A stretch of 38,804 nucleotides of DNA from Candidatus Gastranaerophilales bacterium. GTDB lineage: Bacteria; Cyanobacteriota; Vampirovibrionia; Gastranaerophilales; Gastranaerophilaceae. Below are positions 13,956 to 28,641 of this stretch, piece by piece (position 1 is the stretch's first letter; every line of letters starts with the position of its first letter). The position numbers and the translations under genes were made by a program. Where the stretch lies: contig CALUQQ010000111.1 in NCBI GenBank assembly GCA_944322955.1, positions 1 through 38,804 of the forward strand, in the 5' to 3' direction. The notes under the pieces were generated by a model. It saw nothing but the letters and a program-made list of their open reading frames with translations, was not told the DNA's origin and did not search any database.

Positions 13956-14543
13956 TTATAAAGACAAGATAAAACCGCCTTTATCAGCATTTTTAAGGTT
14001 ATCACCTTCAATTTTCGCACGTAAGTTTTTAATATATTTGTATACATAATCTCTAGGCAGCTCAAGAAGTTCAGCAAGATCTTTTGCATAAACTATTTTG
14101 TCCGTATTTTGGGCAAAATAATCAAAAACTTTTTGTTCTCTGTCTGTAAGATTCTTTTTGAACACAATTCTGACTTCTTCTCTCAAATCATCAGCCGATT
14201 TTTCGGCCTTAATCTGTTTAGAAGCAGCTTTTTTGGATGCAGGGGATTTTTTAACGGTTGTATTAGATTCTTGTTTAGGTACAACAAACGGTGACGGAGC
14301 AATTTCACGTTCACGTGCATAAGCTCTGTCAGCGATAGTATTTAACCTTTCGGTTCTGGTCTGAGACCATTCTGTATCGTTAGAGATTACCGGCTGTCCT
14401 TTCAATACTATATCAACAATATCATTTGTATGTTTATCTTCCTCTAATTTTTTCCCGAGTCTGGCAGCAAATTCTTCTAATGTAATCTTTTCTAATGAGC
14501 TTCTCCATTGCTTTATCTCTTCTTTGCTCAAATATTCAGACAT
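13956..14543 (-). CDS. Winged-helix protein, probable DNA-binding regulator
   Basis: 195 aa. The N-terminal 80 residues are helical and charged with no recognised domain; residues about 85-120 are a low-complexity Lys/Ser/Ala linker (KKSPASKKAASKQIKAEKS). The C-terminal 65 residues resemble the OmpR/PhoB-type winged helix: LTDREQKVFDYFAQNTDKIV, then AKDLAELLELPRDYVYKYIKNLRAKIE, ending KGGFILSL where the family has G-x-G-Y-x-L. No receiver domain is present, so it is not a classical response regulator. Start at 14543 with AAGGAG. Monocistronic, with two repeats in its upstream region. Confidence 0.75.
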   Translation of the reverse strand: MSEYLSKEEIKQWRSSLEKITLEEFAARLGKKLEEDKHTNDIVDIVLKGQPVISNDTEWSQTRTERLNTIADRAYAREREIAPSPFVVPKQESNTTVKKSPASKKAASKQIKAEKSADDLREEVRIVFKKNLTDREQKVFDYFAQNTDKIVYAKDLAELLELPRDYVYKYIKNLRAKIEGDNLKNADKGGFILSL

Positions 14544-14678
14544 TCATTAATCTCCTTAAACAATCTCTTTCACAATATTAACTTAGCACAAACCATGCTC
14601 CAAAAGTGCAAAATGTTTCATAACGTAAATTTTTATGTTAAATATTTTACATTTGTTATATTTCTTTATAAATAGATG

Positions 14679-14710
14679 TTAATAAGATACTAAGGCCGTA
14701 AGACACTTAG
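14679..14710 (-). repeat. Octamer array O1 (four 8-base units)
   Basis: Read on the minus strand the units are TAAGTGTC, TTACGGCC, TTAGTATC, TTATTAAC. Every unit ends in C and the second is the most GC-rich. The same four-unit structure occurs at 18171, 23919 and 27724. It abuts copy A of the GGAATAAG element. Confidence 0.7.
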
Positions 14711-14712
14711 AA

Positions 14713-14792
14713 GTGAATAGGGGAATAAGTTGTTTCTAAAATTAATCTGAGCGGAATTTTTTCAATATCCGTTTTTTTATAACACTTATTCA
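14713..14792 (+). repeat. GGAATAAG inverted-repeat element, copy A
   Basis: GTGAATAGGGGAATAAGTT at the left and AACACTTATTCAC at the right are inverted. The 40-base block from GGAATAAGTTGTTTCT through GAGCGGAATTT is nearly identical to copy B at 18081. The element lies between the 3' end of the second thymidylate-kinase-like gene and the start of the winged-helix gene. Confidence 0.8.
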
Positions 14793-14802
14793 CCTTTAAA
14801 CT

Positions 14803-15474
14803 TTAATCCAGCACGCCGGTATCAAGAATTTTTTGGACTTCGGATTTCATAATTTTATGAATATCAGAAATTGTTTTTGTTCCGTCAATACTGATAAACC
14901 CGTAGGCTTTTTTCATTTTTTCATACTGTTCAAGACACTTATTCTGATAGATTTCAAAGCTATTGTAAAAATCCGTTGAAAAGCCGACATCTCTGCCGCT
15001 TTCGTAGAAATCAAGCCCTGTCGTGCCTATAATCCTTTTCAACAAAACATCGACCGGCATATCAAGATAAAATACCAAATCAGGCTCGGGCGCATATTCA
15101 TAAAGATTTTTTACCCATTCGATATTTTGCCCACGAACGACATCACGAGCAAGAGCGGTATAATAGTATCTATCCAAAAGCACCACAAAGCCTGATTTCA
15201 AGGCCGGAACAATTTGGTTTTCCAATCTGTCGGCGAAATCCGCAGCATATAAAAGACTGTATGTCGTTGCATTAAGCAAATTTCTGTCTTTTGCATCATC
15301 AATAACATCCGCAATAAGCCTTGAGGTTTTCCACTCAGACACCATAACCCCGTAGGATTGATCCTGCAGGTATTTTTTCAAAAGTTCAAGCTGGGTTGAT
15401 TTGCCTGACCCGTCAGTCCCTTCAATTACGACCAGTAAACCTTCGTATCCGTGTTTTGTTTTAATTTTTGTCAT
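14803..15474 (-). CDS. Thymidylate kinase-like protein 2
   Basis: 223-aa P-loop nucleotide kinase of the thymidylate kinase family (dTMP to dTDP in classical members). Visible: P-loop EGTDGSGKSTQLELL, the DRY-type motif LLDRYYYTALARDVVRG, and LVFYLDMPVDVLLKRI before the lid region. The usual TREPGGT loop that contacts the phosphate is replaced by SEWKTSRLI, so the true substrate is open. The ATG overlaps the stop of the upstream paralog (ATGA, 15471-15474). It and the upstream gene are the same length and clearly arose by tandem duplication. Last gene of the ilvC operon. Confidence 0.85.
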   Translation of the reverse strand: MTKIKTKHGYEGLLVVIEGTDGSGKSTQLELLKKYLQDQSYGVMVSEWKTSRLIADVIDDAKDRNLLNATTYSLLYAADFADRLENQIVPALKSGFVVLLDRYYYTALARDVVRGQNIEWVKNLYEYAPEPDLVFYLDMPVDVLLKRIIGTTGLDFYESGRDVGFSTDFYNSFEIYQNKCLEQYEKMKKAYGFISIDGTKTISDIHKIMKSEVQKILDTGVLD

Positions 15475-16142
15475 TTAACCCCCTTAGCCTCAAGAATTCC
15501 GGTGAGCATTTTTCTGATTTCGACCTGTTTTTTGTGAATTGTGTCATTTGCGTCGAGTTTCACAATATCAAACTCTTTGAGCATTTTTTTGTATTCGTTA
15601 ATGACACGGGTTTGAAAAATCAAATAGCTTTCAAAAGGGTCATTACTCAATTTCAAATCCATCCCTGCCTCATAGAATTTAGGAGTTCTGTTAAAGCAAA
15701 TCCGCTCCATAGATGTTTTAGGATCAATATCAAAATAAATTGTCAAATCCGGACGTATTGCAAAATCATAAACCTGCCGAACCCATTTTGGGTCAACACC
15801 TCTTGCGACATCGCGAGCAAATGCAGTGAAGGCGTATCTATCAGCAAGTACGATAAAACCTGCCTTCAAAGCCGGGGCAATAACCTGTTTAAGCCTGTCA
15901 GCAAAATCAACCGCGTGAAGCAGACTGAAAGTTCTGGGCGATAGCATATTTTTTTTCTTGGCAAGCTTAGTTGTCTGGCTGATTAATGGAGAAGAATTCC
16001 ATTCCGTATAAATAACATCTTTACCGCTTGCTTTAAGCCAATCTCTTAAAAGCGAAAGCTGGGTTGATTTACCAGATCCGTCAATCCCTTCGACACAGAC
16101 GAGCGTTCCGTCATAGTTGTGTTTTTCTGTTAATTTTGCCAA
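15471..16142 (-). CDS. Thymidylate kinase-like protein 1 (TTG start)
   Basis: 223-aa paralog of the next gene. P-loop EGIDGSGKSTQLSLL, DRY motif LADRYAFTAFARDVARG, and LTIYFDIDPKTSMERI. The TREPGGT loop of classical thymidylate kinases reads TEWNSSPLI. It starts at a TTG at 16142, seven bases after AGAGGA; the P-loop begins only about ten codons later, so a downstream start is not possible. It overlaps the end of the HD-domain gene by 13 bases. This copy looks closer to the common TEWNSS-type group than copy 2. At least one of the two may supply dTDP, as no classical tmk is in the window. Confidence 0.86.
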   Translation of the reverse strand: MAKLTEKHNYDGTLVCVEGIDGSGKSTQLSLLRDWLKASGKDVIYTEWNSSPLISQTTKLAKKKNMLSPRTFSLLHAVDFADRLKQVIAPALKAGFIVLADRYAFTAFARDVARGVDPKWVRQVYDFAIRPDLTIYFDIDPKTSMERICFNRTPKFYEAGMDLKLSNDPFESYLIFQTRVINEYKKMLKEFDIVKLDANDTIHKKQVEIRKMLTGILEAKGVK

Positions 16143-16981
16143 TTTAATCCTCTTTCTATCATTGCAACGTTGATTCTGCCAAACTTTGCGGACAGATTAT
16201 CCATAAAATGCAGGAAATAAAGTTCCGGCTCAAGGTCCTTTTCGTCCAGATCAATAATCGCCCCCCATTCATCGCGTCCGTGATGTGCCGCAATCATTTT
16301 GGCAATACGTTTAAAACCGTTCATCATACACAGAGAAAAACCGTACTGCGAATGGCTTAACCATTCAGAACGAAAATTTTCATCATAATCTATAAATCCT
16401 GTTTCCAAATTAACCGTATATTCAAAAATCTTGCCGATATCATGCAAAATACACGCCGCAATCGCAATGTCACGACTGATTTTAAGCGTAAACATTTCAA
16501 GATTTTTCTCTGCAAACTGCACACACTCAATTGTATGAACCATAAGTCCGCCGATATAGTTGTGATGCATAACTTTTGCAGCCGGCATAATTTTAATTTT
16601 TTCTTTATGTTCTTCGAAATATGAGGCCAGAAAAATCCGCAATTTTTCATCTTTTATGGTATCAAAATAGCTTATGAGTTTTTTATAGGTTTCTTCTCGT
16701 TCAGCCTCATCCAGACCTGTTTTTGCCTCTTTTATAAGTTCCAATGACGTAACAAGACAGTTATTGAATTTTTCGTTAAAGCTTGCCGTCACAATTCTTA
16801 TGAGATTACCTGTCCTAAAAAGCTTATTATCAAGCCTGTTCAGGGTTTCTTCCCACAAAACACAATTTAAAATTGCATTGTTTTTGGTGTCTTTAAGCTG
16901 AAGCTTGCCCATTTTTGTGCCCGCTTTTGTATCACCTATTGCAAATGTAACAACTTCATAGATAGTTTCCGTATCAAACAT
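16130..16981 (-). CDS. OB-fold/HD-domain protein, YhaM-like 3'-5' exonuclease
   Basis: 283 aa. Residues about 1-90 form an OB-fold nucleic-acid-binding domain (GTKMGKLQLKDTKNNAILNCVLW). Residues about 130-260 are an HD hydrolase domain: HHNYIGGLMVHTIE, ILHDIGK with the metal-binding HD pair, then SHSQYG and AAHHGRDEWG. This order is that of YhaM/CbfA, a metal-dependent 3'-5' exonuclease acting on RNA and DNA ends. AAGGAAAA precedes the ATG at 16981; the gene begins two bases after ilvC ends. Slightly shorter than YhaM of Bacillus (about 314 aa). Confidence 0.88.
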   Translation of the reverse strand: MFDTETIYEVVTFAIGDTKAGTKMGKLQLKDTKNNAILNCVLWEETLNRLDNKLFRTGNLIRIVTASFNEKFNNCLVTSLELIKEAKTGLDEAEREETYKKLISYFDTIKDEKLRIFLASYFEEHKEKIKIMPAAKVMHHNYIGGLMVHTIECVQFAEKNLEMFTLKISRDIAIAACILHDIGKIFEYTVNLETGFIDYDENFRSEWLSHSQYGFSLCMMNGFKRIAKMIAAHHGRDEWGAIIDLDEKDLEPELYFLHFMDNLSAKFGRINVAMIERGLNWQN

Positions 16982-16983
16982 AT

Positions 16984-18000
16984 TTAATTTTTTTCCTTAT
17001 TAATTAATTTTTCTTTGCCCCAGAGAAATGATGAGCGAATTTCTTCGCCGATTTTTTCAATTTGGGAGTCTGCATTTTCTTTTCTGAGCACATTAAATTT
17101 TTTGCATCCCGATTGCATTTCAGTCAAAAATTCATCCGCGAATTTGCCTGATTGAATGTTTTTCAAAATTTCTTTCATCGCTTGTCTTGATTCATTCCCT
17201 ATCACCTGTGGTCCGCGAGTCATATCGCCGTATTCCGCAGTATTGGAAATCGAATATCTCATATCTGTGAGACCGCCCTGACAGATTAAATCAACAATTA
17301 ATTTCATCTCGTGAAGAGTCTCAAAATAAGCCATATAAGGCGAATAACCGGCTTCCACAAGAGTATCAAATCCTGCTTTAATCAAAGCGGAAATACCACC
17401 GCAAATTACCGCCTGTTCGCCGAAAAGGTCTGTTTCAGTTTCTTCACGAAAAGTAGTTTCAAGAATTCCCGCACGTCCGGCGCCTATTGCAGATGCGTAA
17501 GAGAGCGCCACTTCTTTTGAATCCCCTGAAGGATCCTGATAAACCGCAATCAATGAAGGAACGCCTTTGCCTTCCGTGTATTCGCTTCTTACAGTATGTC
17601 CGGGACCTTTTGGCGCGACCATAATTACATTTACGTTCTCAGGTGCCGTAATTCTGTTGAAATGGATATTAAACCCATGTGAAAACATCAGATACTGCCC
17701 TTTTCTCAAATATGGTTTAATTTGGCGTTCATAAACCTCCGCCTGAATTTCATCAGGAATAAGAATTTGCACAATATCAGCCTGCTTTACGGCATCTTCA
17801 ATATTCATAGTTAAAAATCCGTAGGATTTAGCCTTTTTGTCAGAATTGCCCCCTTGTCTTAGCCCCAGAATTACGTTGCAGCCGGAATCTTGAAGGTTCA
17901 AAGACTGGCCGTAGCCTTGAGAGCCAAAGCCTATTACCGCAATTTTTTTTGTCTTAATTAAATCTTTGTCTATATCCTTATCCAAATAAATTTTCACCAT
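16984..18000 (-). CDS. ilvC: Ketol-acid reductoisomerase
   Basis: Second step of branched-chain amino acid synthesis: isomerises and reduces acetolactate and acetohydroxybutyrate with NAD(P)H. 338 aa, class I length. N-terminal Rossmann motif VIGFGSQGYGQSLNL and cofactor loop GLRQGGNSDKKA; C-terminal metal-binding ETDLFGEQAVICGG and SNTAEYGD. I start it at the ATG at 18000 (GAGGTGGA upstream); a longer frame starting with TTG at 18045 begins inside the promoter. No other ilv genes are near. It leads an operon with the HD protein and the two kinases. Confidence 0.97.
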   Translation of the reverse strand: MVKIYLDKDIDKDLIKTKKIAVIGFGSQGYGQSLNLQDSGCNVILGLRQGGNSDKKAKSYGFLTMNIEDAVKQADIVQILIPDEIQAEVYERQIKPYLRKGQYLMFSHGFNIHFNRITAPENVNVIMVAPKGPGHTVRSEYTEGKGVPSLIAVYQDPSGDSKEVALSYASAIGAGRAGILETTFREETETDLFGEQAVICGGISALIKAGFDTLVEAGYSPYMAYFETLHEMKLIVDLICQGGLTDMRYSISNTAEYGDMTRGPQVIGNESRQAMKEILKNIQSGKFADEFLTEMQSGCKKFNVLRKENADSQIEKIGEEIRSSFLWGKEKLINKEKN

Positions 18001-18017
18001 ATCCACCTCGTCAACCA

Positions 18018-18045
18018 ATTTTAGCACAAAGAATAAATTTTTCAA
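18018..18045 (-). promoter_or_regulatory. Promoter of ilvC operon
   Basis: TTGAAA (18045-18040), 16-base spacer, TAAAAT (18023-18018) with TG one base upstream (TGCTAAAAT). Leader of about ten bases that holds the GAGGTGGA ribosome site. No attenuator or leader peptide fits in so short a leader. Confidence 0.7.
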
Positions 18046-18064
18046 AGGTGAATAAGTAAATAAG

Positions 18065-18168
18065 TAAATCAGGGAATAGTGGAATAAGTTGTTTCTAAAA
18101 TTAATCTGAGCGGAATTTCTCCAAGATTGCTTTTATATAACACTTATTCACTCATTCCCATATTTACT
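18065..18168 (+). repeat. GGAATAAG inverted-repeat element, copy B with long arms
   Basis: Core 18081-18151 matches copy A over GGAATAAGTTGTTTCT to GAGCGGAATTT and at ATAACACTTATTCAC. The arms extend further: GTAAATCAGGGAATAGTGGA at the left pairs with the inverted copy ending CATTCCCATATTTAC at the right, so the whole 104 bases can fold into one long imperfect hairpin. Lies between the ilvC promoter and octamer array O2. Confidence 0.82.
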
Positions 18169-18170
18169 TT

Positions 18171-18202
18171 TTAGTACCTTACTGCCTTAGTAACTTAGTA
18201 AC
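18171..18202 (+). repeat. Octamer array O2 (four 8-base units)
   Basis: TTAGTACC, TTACTGCC, TTAGTAAC, TTAGTAAC, then TTTTA. The clearest of the four arrays. It ends two bases before the stop codon of the GNAT gene. Confidence 0.8.
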
Positions 18203-18204
18203 TT

Positions 18205-19185
18205 TTAATTCGAAATAAGCCTATTTTCGCCGAATGAAAATACCTTGAGGACGCTTTCTGCCTCTTTGACGGGTTTGTAGAAATCTTTCACAAAAACGCA
18301 CTGGGTCTGGACACAGTTAAGATTGCGGCTGTGGAGATATTCTTCTAAGATATCGGCATTTTTTGCGTACTGGCGGTGTTTTAAAAACGCGGTAAAATGT
18401 GATTTGCGACGGCGGATTTCACCAAGCCCGAAGTTCAAAATCTCGTCATAATCAAATTGATAGCCGTTATTGGTTGATATATCTATTATAAAATTAAGAT
18501 TATCAACTGTAGTGATTGAAAGATAGGCAATAATATTTTTTCCATTTTCAAGCACATAACGATTTTTGTAGTATTTGTAGAATCCGGCAAAAAAAGGGTC
18601 GGCATATTCGGACGGAATTCTTTCCATTGATGGCTTATATAGGTTATTCAATTCGCCGTTATAAAGCCTTGCAACCGCTTTTGCATCATCCCTTTGGCAA
18701 GGACGAAAGTTTGCCGCAGCAGTACTTTGCGGGGTAAAATTGTCAAGCTTCCATAAATTTTCATACGAACATTGTCTGAAACCGCATCCTTCCACAAAGA
18801 GTGTGCATAATTCATCGTGGCTTATATCAACATAAACTGTGAAGCAGTGCGCACCTTTGGCGCCATATTTTGCTATGATAAATTCTGTTAATTGTTTGCC
18901 CACATTATAAAAATCTTGTTTAAAAACAAGACGTGTTATATTGATTTTGTAAGGATTTCCGGCAGTCGGCTCGACCGTTATCAATCCGAGAATTTCATCG
19001 TTTTCAAGCAGAATATAAGATTCCTGCTTAAATTTATACTGCAAAGGCAACAGATTATTCAGGATCCCAGCGGGTTCTTCCATAATCATTTTCAAAAATC
19101 TGTCGTGTTCTTCAGACCCCAGATACGAGATCATTTTTTCAATTTTAGGATAATCAAAGCAGAATAATTTTCGAATCCTCGTCAT
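18205..19185 (-). CDS. Two-domain GNAT acetyltransferase-like protein
   Basis: 326 aa. Residues about 1-145 look like a GNAT N-acetyltransferase domain: ILGLITVEP as the central strand, then the long helix and VEGCGFRQCSYENLWKL at the end (G-F near the C-terminus is typical). Residues about 155-300 appear to be a second, degenerate GNAT copy (NFRPCQRDDAKAVARLYN ... RNLNCVQTQCVFVKDF). Substrate unknown. No ribosome site: TAAAAT lies six bases before the ATG, with TTGCAT 17 bases further up, as at radA. Divergent from the dehydrogenase pair. Confidence 0.75.
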   Translation of the reverse strand: MTRIRKLFCFDYPKIEKMISYLGSEEHDRFLKMIMEEPAGILNNLLPLQYKFKQESYILLENDEILGLITVEPTAGNPYKINITRLVFKQDFYNVGKQLTEFIIAKYGAKGAHCFTVYVDISHDELCTLFVEGCGFRQCSYENLWKLDNFTPQSTAAANFRPCQRDDAKAVARLYNGELNNLYKPSMERIPSEYADPFFAGFYKYYKNRYVLENGKNIIAYLSITTVDNLNFIIDISTNNGYQFDYDEILNFGLGEIRRRKSHFTAFLKHRQYAKNADILEEYLHSRNLNCVQTQCVFVKDFYKPVKEAESVLKVFSFGENRLISN

Positions 19186-22011: not shown

Positions 22012-23574
22012 CTAAATTACTCCGAATTCTGCCAGCCATTCTTTTTCAATATTTGTCAAAAGAGTGTAATCAATGAGCTTTTCCTCATAAGGCATTTTGA
22101 CAAAGGAATTTATTCTGCCGTTTCTCAAATAACAGGAATTTTCGAGCCTTACACCAAAACATTCTGCATTATAAAGTCCCGGTTCAATGGTAAAACACAT
22201 GTTATCCTGTAAAGGTGTTTTTGCGATTTCACCTTTACCTAAATTAGGCGGCGTTTCATGAACATTTATCCCTATGCCATGCCCGAGTCCGTGATTAAAA
22301 ACAAAACCCTCAATTCTATTTTCGTCAAAAAACAGGCGTGCTTCGTTGTCAATGTCGTAACCCGCCATGCCATCCTTGATTTCTGTATTATAGGCATGCA
22401 AAAATGCCTTCAGAACTGTCGTATAAACCTTCTTTTGCAATCCGTTCGGTTGACCTTTTACAAAAACTCTGGTAATATCAGTCGCGAGTCCGCCCTCAAA
22501 ATACGCCCCGCAATCAATTAAAACAAGACTCCCATCTTTCAAAACCTCGTCAGGCGAAGATTTTGAATAATGCGCAAGTGCTGAATTTTTGTCCTTTGCA
22601 ACGATTGAGTTGAAACTCAAACCTTTTGCTCCGTTTTTAATAAATTCTTCTTCAAGTTTGCATGCAATATCAAATTCCGAAATATTTTCAACTGAATTAA
22701 TATAATCTCTGACTGCCAGGACAACCTTATCTGTACGACAAAAAGCTTCTTTATAATGAGATATTTCCGCGTCGGTTTTAACGGATTTCATCAACTTAAC
22801 GGGGTTTGACTTCATCTCCTCAGCACGGCTGCCTAATAGTGCATAATCATAAGCATTTATTGAAGTTTTGTCAACATATATTTTTTTATCAAGATTTTTG
22901 ATAAAATTTTCAAACTTATCCAGCCTGTTTTCTTCAAAAAGTAAGGCTTTGTCTTTTAAAATAACAGCTTTTGCCTTGACTTTTGCGGAAAAAGGCATTG
23001 AGAAATCCCTTAAATTAAAAAGGTATGAAACCTCCTCCAAATTCGTCAAAAGAATTGCCTCATCATCGTTGAGCTTAATTTGAGCGATTTTCTGCTCGCT
23101 TGTGAGTCCTGTCAAATTTTTATCAAGCGGTATGATTTCGGAATTTAGTGTTGATGCAAAAATATCCAGCGGATCTTTGTCTAAAAGCTTGATTTTACGC
23201 TGTTTTTGGATAAAATCTACAGTTGACTGCGAATTTTTTTCTGAAAAAAGTCCTAAAACTGCATCTGGCGGAATGTTTTTGAGCATTTCTTCTAGAAAAG
23301 TCTGCCCCGTTTGCAATTTTACAACTGTCGTAATCTTCGGATTAACCTCCCAATCCGCCTGAATATGGTATCTTCCGTCAACGAACAAAATAACTTTGTC
23401 CGGTGTTACAAGCGCGTCGCCTGTAGAGCCGGTAAAATTTGTCAGGTGATAACGGGAATTTTCAGACAAAGTATTGTATTCCACCAAAAATTTGTTAGTG
23501 GAATTGACAAGCAAAAAGTCAATTTTTTGCTCTGTCATAAATTCCCGCAAAACCATCAAAACCTGATTTGTCAT
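22012..23574 (-). CDS. pepP: Xaa-Pro aminopeptidase (M24B family)
   Basis: Removes N-terminal residues that precede proline. 520 aa; the long form with two creatinase-like N-terminal domains (ARYHLTNFTGSTGDALV-like region near residues 40-55, FVDGRYHIQAD) before the catalytic pita-bread domain, as in eukaryote-type aminopeptidase P. Metal ligands are visible: D and D in LIDCGAYFEGGLATDITRVF region, H in NHGLGHGIGINVHE, E in TIEPGLY and E in VRLENSC. Its ATG shares a base with the parvulin stop (TAATG). Confidence 0.94.
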   Translation of the reverse strand: MTNQVLMVLREFMTEQKIDFLLVNSTNKFLVEYNTLSENSRYHLTNFTGSTGDALVTPDKVILFVDGRYHIQADWEVNPKITTVVKLQTGQTFLEEMLKNIPPDAVLGLFSEKNSQSTVDFIQKQRKIKLLDKDPLDIFASTLNSEIIPLDKNLTGLTSEQKIAQIKLNDDEAILLTNLEEVSYLFNLRDFSMPFSAKVKAKAVILKDKALLFEENRLDKFENFIKNLDKKIYVDKTSINAYDYALLGSRAEEMKSNPVKLMKSVKTDAEISHYKEAFCRTDKVVLAVRDYINSVENISEFDIACKLEEEFIKNGAKGLSFNSIVAKDKNSALAHYSKSSPDEVLKDGSLVLIDCGAYFEGGLATDITRVFVKGQPNGLQKKVYTTVLKAFLHAYNTEIKDGMAGYDIDNEARLFFDENRIEGFVFNHGLGHGIGINVHETPPNLGKGEIAKTPLQDNMCFTIEPGLYNAECFGVRLENSCYLRNGRINSFVKMPYEEKLIDYTLLTNIEKEWLAEFGVI

Positions 23575-23855
23575 TAATTTTTACCGGTAAGTTGAATTAA
23601 ATGCCAGCCGAATTGAGTTTGAACAGGGTCTGACACGTCACCGACTTCCATATTAAAAGCTGCATCTTCAAACGGTTTAACCATCATACCGCGTCCAAAA
23701 TATCCCAAATCGCCGCCTTCACGACCGGATGGGCAAAGCGAATATTTTTGAGCCGCTTCGGCAAAAGATTCACCGTTTTTAATTTCATCCAATAATTTTT
23801 TAGCTTCTTCTTCTGTTTTTACGAGAATATGGCTTGCTCTTACTTCTGTAGTCAT
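23574..23855 (-). CDS. Parvulin-type peptidyl-prolyl isomerase
   Basis: 93-aa single-domain parvulin, cytoplasmic since there is no signal peptide. Family motifs: RASHILVKTEEEAKKLL, ESFAEAAQKYSLCPSGREGG, DLGYFGRGMMVKPFEDAAF and TQFGWHLIQL. Ribosome site AAGGAG before the ATG at 23855. First gene of a tight operon with the proline-specific aminopeptidase, so both deal with proline peptide bonds; the overlap TAATG couples them. Confidence 0.95.
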   Translation of the reverse strand: MTTEVRASHILVKTEEEAKKLLDEIKNGESFAEAAQKYSLCPSGREGGDLGYFGRGMMVKPFEDAAFNMEVGDVSDPVQTQFGWHLIQLTGKN

Positions 23856-23918
23856 AGTAACTCCTTTTCAAAAGAATTATAACCAAAAAAATCGTGTTAT
23901 GCAACAGATTTAATAAAA

Positions 23919-23950
23919 GTTACCAGGATACTATGGCACTGAGTTACTAA
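23919..23950 (-). repeat. Octamer array O3 (four 8-base units)
   Basis: Minus strand: TTAGTAAC, TCAGTGCC, ATAGTATC, CTGGTAAC, followed by TTTTA exactly as at O2. All four units end in C. It lies 64 bases upstream of the parvulin ATG. Confidence 0.7.
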
Positions 23951-24224
23951 AAATTTATTATCCGCAAGCCGGGCAACAATCTGTCATTCTGAACTTGTTA
24001 TAAAAACTTTTCTAAAAAATTTGCATAAAAAAGTGTAAGCCCAGAATAAACCAAACCCGCTAAAGAAAAATCTTGTCGCAACCCCGAAAAAGTGCCTGGA
24101 TATAATGAGCTTACGTATATATAATAACTCATTTTTTAAAGATTTTCACCCTTCCAGAGAATTAGTTTTATTGTAATAGAAATAACAATTGATAATTAAT
24201 TCTTAAGGATAACAAATTGAAAAC

Positions 24225-27723: not shown

Positions 27724-27755
27724 TTAACGCCTTGTCGTCTTGATAACTTAATGAC
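27724..27755 (+). repeat. Octamer array O4 (four 8-base units)
   Basis: TTAACGCC, TTGTCGTC, TTGATAAC, TTAATGAC, then TTTC. Every unit ends in C and the first two are the GC-rich ones. It lies 35 bases upstream of the mscS start. Confidence 0.7.
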
Positions 27756-27789: not shown

Positions 27790-28641
27790 ATGATAACAGA
27801 AATTTTAAATTACGCGGATAAAATCGAAGCAGCGCTAAAGACGCTGAAATTCGGCTTTATCATAGGGATTATAATCAACGTAATAATAGCGGTTGCGCTT
27901 TTTAAGATTACGGATATTTTTATACAGAAATTGAAAGAGCATACCCAAAAATCGGATTCAACGGCGCTTTCGTCGCATTTAATTCCGATTTTGGATAAGA
28001 TAATAAAATTTTTAATCCTATTTTTTATTGTCGCATCATTTTTGCAAAGTAACGGATATTCAATAACCTCATTGATAGCAGGTTTCGGGATAACCGGTTT
28101 AGCAGTAGGCTTTGCGGCACAACAGACGATCGCTGACTTTTTCGGAACACTTGCGATTATTGCGGATAAAATTTATAAACTCGGCGATTACGTTAAAATC
28201 GGCGAAATTGAAGGTACGGTTGAAGATATAAACCTTTTGTCAACCAAAATCCGCACGCTGGACGATTTTATCGTGTCAATTCCAAATAATAATATTTCGG
28301 CGACTCTGATTACAAATATTTCAAAAGCCAGAAAGCGCCGGATAAACGAGGTTTTTGGCGTGACTTACGACACAAGTGACGAAAAACTTCACCGCGCAAT
28401 TGAGATTATAAAAGAGGTTTGCGAAAATGACACAAGGGTTCACAAAAACCCCGTTACGGTTGTCGAAACCCTTTCTGCAAGCTCAATTGACATAAGACTT
28501 TACGCTTATGTCAAAACGAACACATTTAATGAATTTATCAAAATAAGGTCAGACGTAATTCTGGAAATTGTAAAACGCTTCAGAGCAGAAGGCATTAATT
28601 TTGCGTTCCCGTCACAGTCTGTTTATATCGAGAAAAAATGA
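27790..28641 (+). CDS. Small-conductance mechanosensitive channel (MscS family)
   Basis: Opens under membrane tension to release solutes in hypo-osmotic shock. 283 aa: three membrane helices, with the pore-lining third helix FGITGLAVGFAAQQTIADFF rich in Gly/Ala as in MscS, then the beta domain (DYVKIGEIEGTVEDINLLST, VSIPNNNI) and C-terminal domain. AAAGGAG at 27777-27784 supports the ATG at 27790 rather than the in-frame ATG at 27751, which lies inside the octamer array. Overlaps rlmH by four bases (ATGA). Confidence 0.94.
   Translation: MITEILNYADKIEAALKTLKFGFIIGIIINVIIAVALFKITDIFIQKLKEHTQKSDSTALSSHLIPILDKIIKFLILFFIVASFLQSNGYSITSLIAGFGITGLAVGFAAQQTIADFFGTLAIIADKIYKLGDYVKIGEIEGTVEDINLLSTKIRTLDDFIVSIPNNNISATLITNISKARKRRINEVFGVTYDTSDEKLHRAIEIIKEVCENDTRVHKNPVTVVETLSASSIDIRLYAYVKTNTFNEFIKIRSDVILEIVKRFRAEGINFAFPSQSVYIEKK

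Follow-up and report, generated by a model that had tools for sequence, protein, structure and literature searches.

The question raised by this locus is why several separate places between genes should each carry a short run of four tandem eight-base units, in which the letters vary while the period, the number of units and a final C are kept. The window, by which is meant the whole stretch of 38,804 nucleotides that was analysed, corresponds to contig C111 of a draft genome (1.5 Mb, 78% complete) whose kin are Gastranaerophilales. The original prediction, made from the letters of the window, offered three possibilities for these arrays: a binding array for a protein, an RNA element or the end of a mobile repeat.

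The arrays of the window and their copies elsewhere

All four arrays are present on direct reading of the window (Table 1), at the predicted starts of 18171, 23919 and 27724 on the plus-strand numbering; the minus-strand array placed at 14679 in fact begins one base earlier, at 14678. Each of the 16 units ends in C and the GC-richer unit is the second in every array, as had been claimed. TTTT or TTTC, said to follow most arrays, follows three of the four, the array at 14678 having ATCTATTTATAAA instead. Their placement between genes also holds, provided that the last gene starts at 27790, an ATG with a ribosome-binding site. The array at site 1 has its T side towards gene 13956-14543, whilst at site 2 the TTT following the array merges into the stop codon (18205-18207) of gene 18205-19185. 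At site 3 the third unit, ATAGTATC, is of the type found in left-hand prepilin copies (see below). Site 4 lies upstream of a gene for an MscS-like channel (start 27790; MscS domains matched), and its octamer type, TTAACGTC, is related to, yet distinct from, that of the other arrays in the window.

Table 1. Positions of the octamer arrays and of the repeats that accompany them in the window
Feature	Positions	Strand	Details
Site 1: four-unit octamer array, decayed	14678-14709	-	units TAAGTGTC TTACGGCC TTAGTATC TTATTAAC
Palindromic repeat, ~85 bp	14712-14796		octamer-like inverted ends CTTATTCA/CTATTCCC; BLASTN
Second palindromic-repeat copy (18071-18151) with five-unit octamer-like array (~18045-18088)	18045-18170
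Site 2: four-unit octamer array, best copy	18171-18202	+	units TTAGTACC TTACTGCC TTAGTAAC TTAGTAAC
Site 3: lineage-specific insert AAAAGTTAC...AAACTTTT	23916-24005 (limits approximate)		alignment; one end is the array at 23919
Site 3: four-unit octamer array, strongly decayed	23919-23950	-	units TTAGTAAC TCAGTGCC ATAGTATC CTGGTAAC
Site 4: four-unit array, TTAACGTC type	27724-27755	+	units TTAACGCC TTGTCGTC TTGATAAC TTAATGAC

When the pattern TTA....C, repeated four times, is scored along the window, four places reach at least 14/16 (18171, 27724, the 14678 array and about 18048), and no equally good score occurs in 40 dinucleotide shuffles of the window. The place at about 18048 is an octamer-like array that was absent from the original list. 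The array at 23919 falls under this score, yet has an E-value of 8.7e-8 against a genome-wide profile; in the same genome the 14678 array gives 6.3e-8 and the 18171 array 4.8e-12, but the profile was made from 19 arrays with the window's four among them, so the E-values of those four are flattered.

The window arrays are members of a dispersed repeat of a Gastranaerophilales genus. A sequence-only profile gives 49 copies in the window's own incomplete MAG and, among relatives, 99 in G008, 101 in G010 and 84 in G012; G001 and G011 have five apiece, G002 and G005 have none, and a DNA query finds 33 in G009. Further copies in the genome and its relatives, on which the original prediction depended, are thus many. 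In an exact pattern scan the named genomes were nearly all Candidatus Gastranaerophilales or uncultured gut bacteria, the rest being two Flavobacterium genomes and some rumen bacteria. Among 292 genomes from the phylum, 39 hold the looser pattern (CTTANNNN)x4+CTT, most of them in the same family; the pattern is rare in a reversed control, and its letters are species-specific and recur at many loci (for example in G099 and G201), some matches in Cyanobacteria being plain microsatellites. Searches of phages, plasmids and viral contigs with single queries gave no array matches.

Other repeats and conserved stretches lie beside the arrays. The palindromic-repeat region has about 15 BLASTN hits in its own genome, two copies being within the window, where a 36-bp core (AATAAGTTGTTTCTAAAATTAATCTGAGCGGAATTT) is identical in both (14712-14796 and 18045-18155). 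The stretch 18045-18170 is the 'cargo' adjoining the array at 18171. Next to site 3, a non-coding stretch at 24015-24130 (GTAAGCCC...CTTGTCGCAACCCCGAAAAAGTGCCTGGATAT...GAGCTTACG) is conserved in most of the relatives aligned there; it looks like a small RNA on its sequence and matches no Rfam family, tRNAs being the sole matches in the Rfam search. A neighbouring pair of genes at 14803-16142 each match thymidylate kinase.

Layout at gene ends and at orthologous sites

The number of units is largely fixed. Among 90 arrays of G010, 73 have four units, ten have three, five have two and two have five; units differ inside an array, and their order recurs at separate loci of one species. The claim that period and number are kept, unlike in slipped microsatellites, is borne out by these mixed units in fixed order, and the broad range of unit numbers that would point to slippage is not seen in G010. 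The consensus, TTAGTGCC TTACTGCC TTAGTATC TTAGTAAC, contains on reading neither a GTAG/CGTC tag nor a tagged single hairpin.

Neighbouring arrays less than 1 kb apart in G010 are arranged outward in 15 cases, in tandem in 22 and inward in none. Outward pairs carry terminal inverted repeats with ends AAAAGTTAC...GTAACTTTT; many arrays, however, are single. The cargo between arrays is a changing set of hairpin repeats. Tandem units of ~85 or ~100 bp, each made of one octamer array and a hairpin repeat, are also seen, some at contig ends (L099 12300-12700 and 13980-14244, L100 1-400, L077 16580-16830, L078 7700-7930). The T side of the non-coding arrays of G008, G010 and G012 is directed to a gene 3' end in 38 cases and to a 5' end in 15, where gene starts were called mechanically, making the 5' distances less certain, and tandem copies were counted several times. 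In these genomes 16 of 41 three-prime-facing arrays lie at most 8 bp from the stop codon or overlap it.

The presence or absence of arrays at orthologous places, which the original prediction proposed as a check, does differ between species at sites 1-3. At the place of site 1 there is an outward array pair in G010 and G012, and there are no arrays in G002, G003, G005 and G011. At site 2 the junction between the array and the stop codon of gene 18205-19185 is common to the window, G010 and G012, the array being retained while the cargo is replaced; G003, G005, G007 and G011 have nearly no spacer and lack the junction, and G001 has different repeats. The insert at site 3, upstream of the PpiC-type gene 23574-23855, is missing from G001 and G003-G008 in the alignment, and G010 has an array at that place. 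Site 4 orthologues have four units in G008 and three in G010. From these comparisons we infer that arrays at filled sites may have been inserted, loss also being possible; species rather than strains are compared, and age and direction are uncertain. No clear target-site duplication was found by eye at the flanks of several outward pairs, the empty sites being too diverged. In G008 a block corresponding to window 14800-18164 is relocated and inverted (C31 94000-101900), with break points near array positions.

Arrays of CTTAGNNN in Flavobacterium have the same layout, outward and stop-abutting, and on their sequences the arrays of the two groups appear as look-alikes. The pattern (CTTAGNNN)x3+CTTAG is found in 14 of 296 sampled Bacteroidota genomes; its reversed control also matches in some Bacteroidota, probably owing to CTTAGAAT units, which are GATTC on the opposite strand. 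Two Flavobacterium genomes, selected at loci that hold arrays and represented mostly by sp. ACN2, have 41 arrays at 22 loci in which the triplets are free and CTTAG is conserved at 0.99/1.00/0.91/0.99/0.93; these frequencies are partly by construction, as at most one CTTAG mismatch per unit was allowed in a run, but their evenness between positions is not. Array pairs are outward in 13 cases, some of which are one array called on both strands, and inward in two. The facing arms of the 13 outward pairs, double calls included, do not co-vary (identity of the variable bases 0.476 versus 0.493 when shuffled, P 0.71). The T side in sp. ACN2 faces a 3' end 27 times versus nine for a 5' end, and for 23 of the 27 three-prime-facing arrays the distance to the stop codon is between -8 and +13 nt. 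In 178 of 183 units (97%) of sp. ACN2 a stop triplet occupies the TAA position; amongst changes there in Flavobacterium, TAA to TGA is the commonest (13/18) and TAG never occurs.

Arrays within prepilin genes

A large number of arrays are located upstream of prepilin cores (AAFTLAEVLITL). In 56 such genes, which are related and hence not 56 independent cases, the 240 nt upstream have 0.0047 stops per codon in the prepilin frame, against 0.10 and 0.078 in the two remaining frames. The arrays in these pre-leaders are accordingly open in frame and are predicted to be translated, the left copies reading WEKLLRYYGTKALRSN and the right copies LVPYCLSNLVSFKK. Right-hand copies number 61, each with four units and with C in unit 2 (TTAC), which avoids a stop, because TTAG would be one; of the 58 left copies that have four units, 53 begin unit 3 with A (CTAT, not CTAA, when read). 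The frame forces stop-avoiding bases, and it can hold the number of units at four in coding copies, because losing one 8-base unit shifts the frame. Of 113 intergenic copies, 88 have four units, and the bases at the two coding-mark places are mixed; the reading frame leaves the four-unit dominance among intergenic copies unexplained.

A poly-G survey of 57 prepilin genes gives a common order of a ribosome-binding site and ATG, about 6-13 codons, a tract of 6-11 G and then the pre-leader, which, apart from two exceptions, is open in the prepilin frame. The ATG is in the prepilin frame in 12 of the 57 and out of it in 45 (31 with nine G), the tract lengths being those of assemblies rather than reads. 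The loci include L079, L085, L088, L102 and L106, from G008, G010, G012 and others, and have the appearance of a large phase-variable prepilin family. Octamers of the TTAACGTC type (KELNVLTSYRLNDFKKK) also seem to be translated in pre-leaders (for example L070, L110, L112, L102 and L106), as does a 9-base repeat (THLTHFTHAKR). A prepilin pre-leader is expected to be removed by the prepilin peptidase.

What the arrays may be

Of the three possibilities offered originally, the end of a mobile repeat fares best, although its mobility is a matter of inference: pairs are outward only, inserts are lineage-specific and there are 49-101 copies per genome. Our preferred, if tentative, reading is that each array forms the terminal module of a REP/MITE-like intergenic repeat, one that is short, non-coding and dispersed. 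A typical full element would be an outward pair of arrays, ~36 bp each, around 50-600 bp of variable, hairpin-rich cargo; each end would usually comprise four period-8 units with a CTTA core and a terminal TTT(T), and single arrays and tandem ~85/100-bp units are found as well. The arrays are the likely recognised part, because the units and their order are common to loci within a species and different between species, and the copying machinery that recognises them might be a trans-acting transposase or recombination among the copies. Read outward from the gene, an array presents CTAAG every 8 nt and TAA in every frame, all within 24 nt because 8 is coprime to 3, the other strand having TAG. 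Such a multi-frame stop could explain why arrays are tolerated exactly at stop codons, whether by selection or by mere harmlessness. Against an array that is a mobile end, no clear target-site duplication was read, many arrays are single and each Flavobacterium array has its own unit combination, unlike what recent transposition would leave. A Y1 (RAYT-like) transposase, the sole transposase family searched, was rejected as the driver: it is absent from G008 (99 arrays, 97% complete) and from the window's own incomplete genome, its two matches in G002 are in a genome without arrays by profile, and no arrays flank Y1 copies.

The strongest competitor, although an unlikely one, is a gene-end (3'-UTR) element under selection, in which NNNCUAAG repeats would directly follow the stop codon in the mRNA as a putative multi-frame translation stop or site for an RNA-binding protein, and pairs are the own arrays of two adjacent genes. 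It would account for the stop-codon position in two phyla, for the stop triplet in almost all Flavobacterium units with TAA to TGA as the commonest change, and for an array kept at site 2 though the cargo was replaced; however, about a quarter of arrays are directed towards a 5' end, arrays occur at a minority of genes and not at all in most related genomes, and CTTAG keeps its C and G although a stop would not require them. That conservation, above 90% in Flavobacterium, cannot be accounted for by stop codons alone, nor can the fact that TAG never stands in for TAA, and both points also weigh against the preferred reading; a pure stop cassette was rejected because of the conserved C and G, surviving only within the gene-end idea. 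A wider version, a shade less probable again, would make the CTTAG(NNN) arrays an undescribed gene-end element of Gastranaerophilales and Flavobacterium, stop-abutting, with fixed period and free triplets, recognised by a putative conserved protein or by the translation apparatus and serving again as building blocks of phase-variable prepilins. The RNA element of the original prediction is weakened in its hairpin form, a selected hairpin being unlikely where the facing arms of the Flavobacterium pairs do not co-vary; binding of the RNA may still be envisaged. The same lack of co-variation suggests that sequence rather than pairing is kept, as would suit a DNA-binding array in which a hypothetical protein, singly or in several copies, reads CTTAG at a fixed 8-bp spacing, and the pentamer is constant and the triplet free over many loci in two phyla. 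Nevertheless this is improbable, as no protein presents itself as a candidate, a spacing of 8 bp does not correspond to a helical period, the cores are altered in prepilin-gene copies and position is linked to gene ends rather than promoters.

That the intergenic arrays are debris of prepilin leaders, copied out of pilin genes by recombination, is more doubtful still. The arrays examined in G001 and G011 are mostly at prepilin genes, the coding mark TTAC stands in unit 2 of 46 of 88 four-unit intergenic copies and the left mark ATAG is present at window 23919; but 32 of the 88 carry neither mark (G in unit 2, T in unit 3), and other octamer types and the Flavobacterium arrays share the layout without a shown link to pilins. 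Ordinary microsatellite slippage is very improbable and was rejected as the main explanation: some arrays do have two, three or five units, the 27724 array having three in G010, and pure (CTTACACC)n repeats exist in other Cyanobacteria, but units are unlike within an array and in the same order across loci, four dominates, and whole arrays are dispersed and oriented.

The STRR heptamers of cyanobacteria are short tandem intergenic units of seven bases, variable in number and without outward pairing. The octamer arrays, likewise short intergenic tandem units and from the same phylum, differ in their 8-base units and outward pairs. REP, BIME and RAYT-associated repeats and TIR families are short, high-copy and intergenic, mostly downstream of genes with some inside them (PMC3733652). 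The octamer repeat shares this distribution, and also the pairs in opposite orientation and the clusters; in contrast, it is a period-8 array without a GTAG/CGTC-tagged single hairpin, and Y1 transposases are not flanked by it. Prokaryotic MITEs are non-coding, with inverted ends and a variable interior (PMC10969869), and BrickBuilt of Porphyromonas gingivalis combines a tandem repeat of 23-nt internal units with MITE-like ends of IS5 type (PMC4596501). Like these, the octamer repeat is non-coding and dispersed, with inverted ends, a variable interior and filled and empty orthologous sites, but here the tandem array is itself the end, no target duplication was clear by eye, and no parent insertion sequence was found in a search that covered the Y1 family. 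Rickettsia palindromic elements are in-frame repeats in protein genes that become part of the protein (PMC10969869). Octamer arrays likewise lie in frame within genes, as their sequence shows, and would be translated there; the coding copies seen are in one gene family, in the prepilin pre-leader, mixed with other hairpin repeats. No earlier description of an octamer-array repeat was found in the open-access literature on octamer repeats, the array sequences or prepilin phase variation.

Dispersed repeats of bacteria are for the most part tagged hairpins or relics of insertion sequences. A repeat with period-8 arrays as its ends, set at stop codons and resembled by arrays in another phylum, would represent a design of its own, with a simple signature for surveys. 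Its in-frame use in prepilin pre-leaders shows a route by which repeats may enter proteins, at a place where the added part is expected to be cut off.
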